Shown here: piece by piece, positions 57,369-60,300 of the stretch | Layout of the letters: each line of letters starts with the position of its first letter | How positions within the stretch are numbered: the stretch's first letter is position 1 | Position numbers and translations under genes: made by a program | Source: Planctomycetota bacterium | GTDB lineage: Bacteria; Planctomycetota; UBA1135 | Reading direction: 5' to 3' | Assembly: GCA_008501825.1 (NCBI GenBank) | Contig: QQUA01000016.1 | Coordinates: 124,001 to 188,000 of the forward strand | DNA: 64,000 bases | The notes under the pieces: generated by a model | What the model was told of the DNA's origin: nothing | The model's input: only the letters and a program-made list of their open reading frames with translations | Databases searched by the model: none

Positions 57369-60300
57369 CTAGGACTTGAGCGCACGAGGACCTCTGGCCA
57401 GGCGGAAGCCCAGGTTGTCGTAGCGGTAGGCGCGAGGGCTCCAGTAGCGGTAGGCAGCACGGACGTTCCACGCGCGCCAGTACCAGGAGCCGCCACGGCG
57501 CACCCGGTACGGGCCGTCCATAGAGCCAGACGGCGTTTCGTCAAAGTTTCGGTCCCCGTACTCCCGCTGGCCGTCGGCACACCACTCAAAAACGTTGCCC
57601 AACATGTCGAACAGACCCCATGGGTTGGCCTTCTTCTCGCCAACCGGGTGAGTGCGCTTTTTGCTGTTGGCCGCATACCAGGCAATGGAATCCAGGTCCT
57701 GGTCATAACGCGCCTCGGTGGTTCCCGCCCGGCAGGCGTATTCCCATTCTGCCTCCAAGGGCAGGCTGAAATGAAGCCCATCTTGGAGGTTCAGTCGGCC
57801 TTCCAGTCGCTTTAAAAATTTCTGGCAATCATCCCAACTCACCTTTTCCACCGGGCGTTCCGGCCCCTGAAAGCGACTCGGATTGTCGCCCATCACCTCT
57901 TGCCAAAGGGCTTGGGTGCAAGGGGTTTCTCCCAGCCAGAAGCCCCGGTCGATTACCACCCAATGTTGGGGGCCTTCTTGATCGAAGCGGCCGGATTCGG
58001 ATTTCGGTGAGCCCATCTGAAAGCGCCCGGGGGGGATCCAGCGCATGCGGAAACGGACCTTGCCAAGTTGGTATTCCATGGACAAACCGAAACGGTCCCG
58101 GAACATGGTCCTGGCCCTGGAAGGTCGAATCGCTCGGCGAAAACGAACCGCCATCAGCTCGGTACGAAGCTGCAACTCCTGGGGCTTCAGGGTCAGTCCT
58201 TGATCGGCTTCACCGGACAGCCACCAACTCTCTTTCTTTTTCTGAGTTTTGCCGGCCTCGGGGGCATCCTCCCTCGAGCGCTTCCTGCGCTCTCCGGATG
58301 CCCCCTCGGCCTGGAGCGCACGAGGAACCCAGGCCAGGCGGAAGCCCAGGTAGCCGTTGCGGTCGACGCGAGGGCCCCAGTGGCGGCAGGCAGCACGGAC
58401 GAGCCACGCGGGCCAGTCCCAGGAGCCGCCACGGAACACCCGGAGCGGGCCGTCCATAGAGCCAGACGGCGTTTCGTCAAAGTTTCGGTCCTCGTACTCC
58501 CGCTGGCCGTCGGCACACCACTCAAAAACGTTGCCCAACATGTCGAACAGACCCCATGGGTTGGCCTTCTTCTCGCCAACCGGGTGAGTGCGCTTTTTGC
58601 TGTTGGCCGCATACCACGCAATGGAATCCAGGTCCTGGTCATAACGCGCCTCGGTGGTTCCTGCCCGGCAGGCGTATTCCCACTCCGCTTCTTTCGGCAG
58701 ACGGAAGCCGCCGACATTTCCCAACTTGGCTTCCAACTTCTCGAAAAAACCTTGGCAATCATCCCAACTCACCTGCTCCACCGGATGATCCTTCCCCACG
58801 AAATGACTCGGGTTTTCCCCCATCACTTCCTGCCAAACAGCTTGGGTGCAAGGCGTTTCCCCAAACCAAAAACCCTCCGGGATCCGTACCCAGTGTTGCG
58901 GGCCTTCATCTTCATCTCGCCCTTCTTCCTCCTTCGGAGAACCCATCAGGAAACGACCAGGCCGGATCCAGCGCATGCGCTGTTCCGCTTCCCCCACTCG
59001 AAAAACCGCCCAAGGACCATATTCGTCCTCGCCACAAGAGGAAGCCCAGGGAGGTTTGAAAAATGGCTCTTGCGAGAAGTCGGCGGCGGGTTCGCCAACT
59101 GAAAGCACACAGCCGCCGGTCAAGGCTTGGAGTTGAAGCAAAGGGGATAGGGCCCGGCCGGCCATCGTTTTCTCGTAGGGAGCCAAATGGATACTTTCCC
59201 CTTGTTGATAAAGCTGAAGGCCCAAGGTTGGAGGCGGAGTTTTGGAATCTCTCTTCATTAACTCCAATTCGGCCGGATCCACCGAGGCGGGAATCGGGTC
59301 TCCGCTTTTAGGATTGCGCAACAGGAAGTGGGCTAGGCCCAACTCCGGATGCACTTCGACGGCATCGGGTACGTCCTCCAAGGTATCGTCTAGAAAATTG
59401 AACAACGCCTGGCGGGTTTTCGGCTGCCCTCCAGTTTGCCGCAACCAGGTGACGGCCTTTTTGTATGCCTTTTTCGCCTGCTCGACCTCTTTCGACAGGG
59501 TCTGTCGTGCCCACACTTGGTCGGCGGCAGCCATGGCCAACACTGTTTCACTCCAAAGGGCAGGAAAGCCGCCCTGTAAGGATTCTTTGAACCGCTGGGC
59601 CAGAGTGGTCTTCAGGTCCAACGGAAGTTCCCCCCACTGCCGGCGGAAATCATCGCCGTAATTCCCGAGGATGCGCAAGGAAGAACCGTCTGTTTCCACC
59701 CGGGGATCCCGCCAAGCCCGCTGTTCGGCAGCCAGATCGATTTCGGCTCCCGGAACCAAGGTTCGGGCCTGCCGAAGTAAATCTGAGCTCACTCGGGACA
59801 CTGGGGAAACCAGAGTTAGAAGGCGGTCGACCGCAGGATCCTTCGGAAGGGGTTCCGAGGATGGTTCCTCCAGAGCGGGCGGCCAGGAAAAAGAAAGACT
59901 CGCCTCGGAAAGGCAACGTTCCCAGGAGTGAGCGTTCCAAAGCCGGCTCAATCGGCTGGGAAGGCTTTGGGGAGCGGGGCAAAGGGCGAAACGGGCCAGG
60001 GAACGTCGAGCTAACTCGGTGCCCAAGCGCTCCCAAGGAGAAGTTCGGGGGCCGGCCCCGCCGAAATCGGTCAGAGCCAGAACTCCCTCGGTTTGGTTGC
60101 TCAGCTCCTCCAACACCAAAGGAATCACGTTGGCACCACAAGCCGGAGGAAGGAACACCGGCGAAAAAATCTCCGGCGGAAGGTGACGCCTCAGCAGCTT
60201 AAGGAGCGCAATCCAGTCCCGTTCAAAAGGCACCAGGGAGGGTTCCTGGTCGACCGCCAACAGAATCTTGCCGGCGAAATGGCTGCGGCTCTGCCTTGGA

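Follow-up and report, generated by a model that had tools for sequence, protein, structure and literature searches.

A diversity-generating retroelement with two variable repeats in one target protein and a candidate retrohoming signal in the linker between its lectin domains

Introduction

The main targeted-hypermutation systems known from bacteria and phages are diversity-generating retroelements (DGRs). Their targets usually carry a single variable repeat (VR) at the C-terminus, as a first-pass annotation of the DNA studied here had stated in agreement with the literature (PMC8144416). According to Roux et al., VRs are C-terminal because the cis signal can then be intergenic (PMC8144416). 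Several VRs per ORF have already been described for Marichromatium, for DGR 4/5 of Thiohalocapsa and for 31 surveyed DGRs (PMC3521204, PMC10907252, PMC6642488). The multi-VR polypeptide is a known type, and the window (the whole stretch of 64,000 nucleotides that was analysed) contains one: two VRs of one template repeat (TR), each in its own C-lectin domain. This locus raises the question how one TR and one reverse transcriptase (RT) can serve two sites in a single reading frame, one of which is internal, and whether the two sites are rewritten separately.

Results and Discussion

The locus is an HRDC-type DGR by its sequence

Judged from its sequence, the locus is a chromosomal HRDC-type DGR, with an RT, TR/VR repeats, an accessory gene and C-lectin targets all present. 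It lies entirely on the minus strand of a 5.7-Mb draft genome and comprises, in the direction of transcription, a trypsin-like protein, a MoxR ATPase, a target of 1136 aa, an HRDC protein, the RT, the TR and a short FGE gene (Table 1). The accessory gene of a DGR is either avd or HRDC (PMC3240598). The RT is 46-57% identical to RTs from loci with A-biased TR/VR pairs, and the RT including its YMDD motif, the HRDC gene and the TR are all intact. In PADLOC and NCBIfam searches no family over the curated cut-off named the system, and an Rfam search of the region matched no family. No VMAP domain was found in the peptidase protein, in which Trypsin_2 was the only match.

Table 1. Positions of the features of the DGR locus in the window, listed in the direction of transcription.
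Feature	Position	Strand	Remarks
Trypsin-like peptidase protein, possible effector	61819-63264	minus	Trypsin_2 match
MoxR-type AAA ATPase	60779-61822	minus	ORF and domain match; adjoins target upstream
Target gene, 1136 aa	57369-60779	minus	~590-aa N-terminal region and two tandem FGE-sulfatase/C-lectin domains
First FGE-sulfatase domain (D1)	58329-58979	minus	
5' flank of VR2b	58452-58676	minus	homogenised with 57516-57740
VR2b, internal	58332-58451	minus	aa 777-816, closes D1; TR adenines at all 18 mismatches
Translated hairpin, proposed target-site element	58260-58305	minus	27 nt 3' of VR2b, in disordered linker
Second FGE-sulfatase domain (D2)	57393-58046	minus	
5' flank of VR2a	57516-57740	minus	222/225 identical to 58452-58676, recently homogenised
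VR2a, C-terminal	57396-57515	minus	aa 1089-1128, closes D2; TR adenines at 12 of 13 mismatches
GCGGAGC motif	57344-57350	minus	46 nt 3' of VR2a, just past stop codon of target
HRDC-domain accessory protein, 157 aa	56804-57277	minus	position is that of avd in BPP-1
Reverse transcriptase, 334 aa, DGR type	55819-56823	minus	RVT_1 match, IGALSSQ and YMDD motifs
Template repeat (TR), 120 nt	55633-55752	minus	24 adenines; without GCGGAGC element 3'
Short second target, FGE only, 279 aa	54677-55516	minus	
VR1, probably retired, in short FGE target	54686-54805	minus	14 A and 16 non-A differences (124-nt alignment)

Both VRs of the target differ from the TR at adenines

The coordinates of the two repeats could be reproduced: VR2b and VR2a are spaced by exactly 936 nt and lie in frame in one ORF of 1136 aa. 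The repeat counts of the first-pass annotation hold as well. Over 120 nt and without gaps, VR2b has 18 mismatches to the TR, every one at a TR adenine, and 12 of the 13 in VR2a are likewise at TR adenines, with adenine occupying 24 of the 120 TR positions. The lone non-A mismatch of VR2a within this length is T16G, located beside a mutated A. On the 124-nt alignment, the hypergeometric probability of such an A bias by chance is 1.5e-17 for VR2b (19/19) and 2.4e-8 for VR2a (12/14). The confinement of the mismatches to adenines and these odds support A-specific mutagenic retrohoming into both sites, as had been claimed, as the best reading. Since all mismatches of VR2b and all but one of VR2a within 120 nt are at adenines, the writing was probably recent.

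Reading frame and stop codons had been named as the hurdle for an internal VR. Indeed, no A-to-N change of the TR yields a stop, and 15 TR codons can vary by such changes; however, the DNA target signal 3' of the VR is the greater obstacle. The description of VR2b as internal also had to be refined: it lies upstream of the C-terminal VR, but at the end of the first tandem domain and not in the middle of a domain.

A third VR of the same TR, VR1, sits in the separate short FGE gene. Its candidacy as an active third target was rejected in favour of probable decay, given its 16 non-A differences and the absence of a 3' element. At this locus, the clean repeats VR2a and VR2b have a 3' element and the drifted VR1 is without one. 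VR1 drifted at the non-A sites although the domain of the short gene is ~90% identical to the first domain of the target.

The two VRs appear to be rewritten separately

VR2a and VR2b differ from each other at 15 of the 24 TR-adenine sites and at 1 of the 96 other VR sites (Fisher 4e-12), and the differences at A sites also stand out against 3/225 in the flanks (Fisher 2e-15). Eleven adenines are mutated in both VRs, four of which share the new base, compared to 3.7 expected if the three bases are equally likely. In 17 two-VR loci, the sharing of the same state was equal within one ORF (80/164) and between ORFs (232/467). When the related lineages L035 and L192 were compared, the internal VR showed 18 A and 3 non-A differences, and the terminal VR 17 A and 5 non-A differences. 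Because VR differences are mostly at A sites and mutant states are shared at chance level, it is concluded that each VR is rewritten separately; as read from genome snapshots, the separate writing of VR2a and VR2b is well supported. The first-pass annotation had considered that VR2b might vary only by gene conversion from VR2a. The chance-level sharing and the 15/24 against 3/225 differences contradict this, and gene conversion in either direction is rejected as the sole source of VR variation.

On the evidence of the sequences, the flanks were nevertheless subject to gene conversion or duplication, over ~225 nt upstream and ~20 nt downstream of the VRs. As 222 of the 225 upstream positions are identical, the block is a recent product of duplication or conversion. 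Outside this block, D1 and D2 clearly differ: D1 matches D2 near the VR, whereas the N-terminal halves of D1 and D2 are only ~70% identical and the N-terminal part of D1 is 91% identical to the domain of the short gene. The 90% cluster of the RT has one member, and among 100 neighbouring genomes no close relative of the target was found. Near-identical locus pairs mostly carry identical VRs too and are probably the same strain assembled twice.

A hairpin and a GCGGAGC motif lie 3' of the VRs

The hairpin 3' of VR2b has an outer stem of 10 bp, formed by GGGGGCATCC/GGATGCCCCC, and an inner stem of 6 bp, GAGCGC-AGGAA-GCGCTC, at 58276-58292. It has a z of -3.15 versus shuffles and is the most stable of all 80-nt folds in the ORF. 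This flank has the hairpin but no GCGGAGC heptamer, and its dyad centre is A-GGA-A. In the 3' flank of VR2a the heptamer is present but the fold is no better than shuffles (z +0.42). The heptamer found there also occurs 3' of VRs in relatives. On the 3' side of VR1, neither a hairpin nor GCGGAGC was found.

Retrohoming of BPP-1 needs a hairpin just 3' of the VR (PMC3240598), which was confirmed in a reconstituted system (PMC12875486). The published ranges for this hairpin are a stem of 7-10 bp and a distance of 4-34 bp (PMC3240598). Like that of BPP-1, the VR2b hairpin is GC-rich, lies 3' of the VR, is absent from the TR and is free in its stem sequence, and its 10-bp stem at a distance of 27 nt falls within these ranges. 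The loops differ: BPP-1 has a 4-nt GRNA loop, whereas the apex at VR2b is the inner 6-bp stem with an AGGAA loop, and relatives have GCGGAGC, often in several copies. Also unlike BPP-1 sites, VR2a is without a significant hairpin, and at internal VRs of the window and its relatives the element is translated. DNA mini-hairpins of unusual stability are formed by GNA and GNNA loops that have at least two G-C pairs (PMC4686876). The sequence GCGGAGC belongs to the GNA mini-hairpins, and if the GRNA loop of BPP-1 is read as one of GNNA type, the two elements would be linked. By analogy, the hairpin element probably works as a target signal as in BPP-1.

The element is common 3' of VRs in relatives

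Relatives of the RT were collected from GTDB species genomes, phylum genomes, JGI metagenomes and IMG/VR, and TR/VR pairs were identified with one script. In a k-mer count, GCGGAGC was the standout word 3' of VRs in relatives. After pooling and de-duplication, it was present within 110 nt 3' of 28/33 internal VRs, 138/187 terminal VRs and 1/131 TRs. Internal VRs thus differ from TRs (Fisher 2e-25) and resemble terminal VRs (p 0.20), and in background windows the motif occurred in 2% and 1%. The metagenome set was fetched after the discovery of the motif and served as replication sample; in this out-of-sample set, 16/17 internal VRs, 67/85 terminal VRs and 0/56 TRs carried the motif. No GCGGAGC element was found in 70 flanks of distant viral RT relatives. 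In the internal linkers, GCGGAGC occupies all three reading frames (22/14/4). Because the motif lies in the ORF at internal VRs and uses all frames, the constraint appears to be on the DNA and not on one peptide.

Folding pointed in the same direction. Compared to dinucleotide shuffles, the mean z of 3' flanks was -1.79 for internal and -2.40 for terminal VRs, versus -0.18 for upstream coding and -0.82 for TR controls. The difference between flanks of internal VRs and of TRs was weak (p 0.026), and perfect inverted-repeat arms exceeded those of shuffles in length only slightly. In 13/34 two-VR ORFs (0.8 expected), no 80-nt fold of the ORF was more stable than one just 3' of the internal VR, and in 25/34 the linker was among the top ten folds of the ORF. 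It was also considered whether a missing GCGGAGC marks a drifting VR as a general rule. This was not supported, as absence of the motif was not accompanied by more non-A drift across loci (p 0.32).

Some details of the arrangement were seen in individual loci. Copies of GCGGAGC are often 31-33 nt apart, near three helical turns (for example in L010, L015, L017, L019, L032 and L033). They lie in or around inverted repeats, such as that of L010 with a stem of 25 bp, and a single long inverted repeat often carries them at both of its feet and in its loop. The related loci L023 and L027 have a hairpin CGTTCCCACG..CGTGGGAACG in the coding linker after the internal VR, with the appearance of a mobile palindrome of intergenic origin that was captured in frame.

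Two-VR targets recur among MoxR-linked DGRs

Two VRs in one ORF were found in 19/83 loci of the genome set and 17/56 loci of the metagenome set, and in 0/69 distant viral loci. Of the de-duplicated MoxR-linked loci, 32/56 have a two-VR target, usually together with a short second target, and this layout is therefore a standard architecture among these relatives. The hosts belong to the Pseudomonadota, Planctomycetota and Verrucomicrobiota, among them named strains of Azospirillum and Roseospira. On the RT tree, the two-VR label requires 6 changes compared to a shuffled mean of 11.8, so that it is clustered without forming one clade. In the tree of FGE domains, the domains of one locus tend to group (D1 with D2 or with that of the short target) and do not group by position, which indicates that domain copies were exchanged within loci. 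A single ancestral event as origin of the two-VR layout was rejected on account of both trees.

Of the described systems, Marichromatium purpuratum 984 (MarpuDRAFT_1558; PMC3521204) likewise has tandem FGE-sulfatase paralogues in one ORF with a VR each, with three domains and VRs versus two in the window. Its authors could not tell whether the three-VR ORF was an artefact or a pseudogene (PMC3521204); unlike this doubtful ORF, the two-VR ORF of the window recurs in dozens of loci. DGR 4/5 of Thiohalocapsa PB-PSB1 (PMC10907252) shares the tandem VR-bearing C-lectin domains and the genes for a MoxR ATPase and a peptidase. In nature, the VRs of a single target there differ in their degree of diversification (PMC10907252). 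It has three domains, an N-terminal vWA and a VMAP partner; in the window there are two domains and a separate short target, and neither a vWA nor a VMAP could be recognised. Similar in gene content are the MoxR-linked DGRs of clade 5A (for example Thiohalocapsa DGR 8), which, as described in the main text of PMC10907252, have MoxR directly upstream, a long target with an uncharacterised N-terminal extension like that of the window, and a short target with only a C-lectin domain. That main text places the C-lectin domains at the C-terminus of both targets, without mention of an additional, internal VR in the long target.

Domains and putative function of the target

VR2b closes D1 and VR2a closes D2, and the two domains are joined by a linker that is predicted to be disordered (pLDDT ~33; model residues 240-281, ~58182-58307). 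Among solved structures, that of the DGR target TvpA of Treponema denticola (PDB 2y3c) is closest to the lectin domains both by sequence and by fold; TvpA has a single domain and a single VR versus two of each in the target of the window.

The N-terminal region of ~590 aa has no Pfam match. A vWA domain is a usual partner of MoxR, and the Pfam vWA family matched neither this region nor its 33 homologues. In a fold search with the N-terminal region, vWA-like matches were weak, none with an E below 0.001. Between aa ~160 and 290, a conserved LxVxxDRSxRLxPF ... VLVLGDLG and an alternating order of strands and helices were observed. This pattern hints at a degenerate vWA-like domain, for which the weak fold matches are the NorQD chain and vWA receptors. 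MoxR-linked DGRs have been interpreted as putative sensors of antigens in conflict systems (PMC10907252, PMC7159879). By likeness to relatives with matching gene order and domains, the target is a putative immune-type sensor.

Alternative explanations

The homogenised flanks suggest that only one VR might be a real retrohoming target, with the other being varied by gene conversion from it. Conversion or duplication did take place, as the 222/225 identical flank positions show, and the clustering of the FGE domains of one locus fits concerted evolution. This reading is nevertheless very improbable: the VRs differ at 15/24 A sites with mutant states shared at chance, sixteen other two-VR loci show the same pattern with equal sharing within and between ORFs, and in L035 and L192 both VRs differ mainly at A. 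An assembly artefact, in which a tandem repeat was collapsed or chimerically joined in an assembly of metagenome type, is hardly credible. Although a repeat block of ~370 nt with 92% identity could be misjoined by short reads and the genome is an incomplete draft, the divergence of the N-terminal halves of D1 and D2 marks them as distinct domains, and dozens of other assemblies have the same layout, including those of the named Azospirillum and Roseospira strains.

Two independently written VRs, as preferred here, could still be a relic, both having been written in the past by a DGR that is now silent in this organism. The drift of VR1, which is without a 3' element, agrees with this, and conspecific sequences showing current change were not found. 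The near-complete lack of non-A mismatches in VR2b and VR2a and the intact RT, HRDC gene and TR argue for recent writing and make a relic rather unlikely; from these sequences, the DGR is probably active now. A minor possibility, to be taken seriously, is that the element 3' of the VRs is a terminator, an RNA-processing site or a GC-rich repeat brought along with the domain. At terminal VRs it often lies near the gene end, and the stem sequences vary. Yet it is equally frequent at internal VRs, where a terminator would do harm because it would lie inside the ORF. Both the 3' flanks of TRs and background windows lack the element, and its position and GNA-loop type match the proven element of BPP-1. 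A retrohoming signal remains the preferred reading of the element.

Proposed mechanism and its significance

In the proposed mechanism, one TR and one RT would write two VRs in one protein; a third VR, that of the adjacent short gene, would have been written formerly. The TR would be copied into cDNA with errors at adenines, and this cDNA would replace VR2b and VR2a in separate events. The GC-rich hairpin 3' of VR2b would be the DNA signal for retrohoming although it lies inside the reading frame, being translated as the disordered linker between the two lectin domains. It is proposed that the internal VR2b can be targeted because the 3' signal is present within the ORF and is read as such a linker. 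This explanation as a whole, an HRDC-type DGR with two VRs from one TR and an internal VR targeted via a translated hairpin, is considered quite probable. A wider proposal is made tentatively, with slightly more doubt than confidence: HRDC-type MoxR-linked DGRs may have a portable DNA signal module, a GC-rich hairpin array with the GNA mini-hairpin GCGGAGC, that can be read as a disordered linker, which would free the DGR from the C-terminus and let a single template diversify, independently, more than one binding site in the same sensor.

A common DGR class with an internal VR and a linker-translated signal would challenge the rule of intergenic signals for C-terminal VRs (PMC8144416). The two-VR target as standard layout of a clade, together with a translated conserved 3' element, is new as far as the literature searched extends; Wu et al. 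2018 (NAR survey) and supplements were outside its scope, and within it no paper pairs 'diversity-generating retroelement' with 'GCGGAGC'. One protein could bear two independently diversified binding faces, in principle with ~1e14 sequences each, as would be expected of a two-headed or co-incidence sensor. In addition, the conserved GCGGAGC may be a practical handle to find active VRs and to mark target sites in the poorly studied HRDC-type DGRs.

Further observations in the genome

An ORF of 334 aa at 53650-54654, immediately after the short FGE gene, has no Pfam or NCBIfam match. Across the genome, 31 matches to the FGE-sulfatase domain were found, mostly on other contigs, which indicates a large C-lectin/FGE repertoire. 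The same genome also has a second DGR (L008, contig C15:127000-146500) with the same gene order, consisting of MoxR, a 956-aa target, HRDC, an RT (45% identical), a TR and a 372-aa FGE target, with one VR per target.
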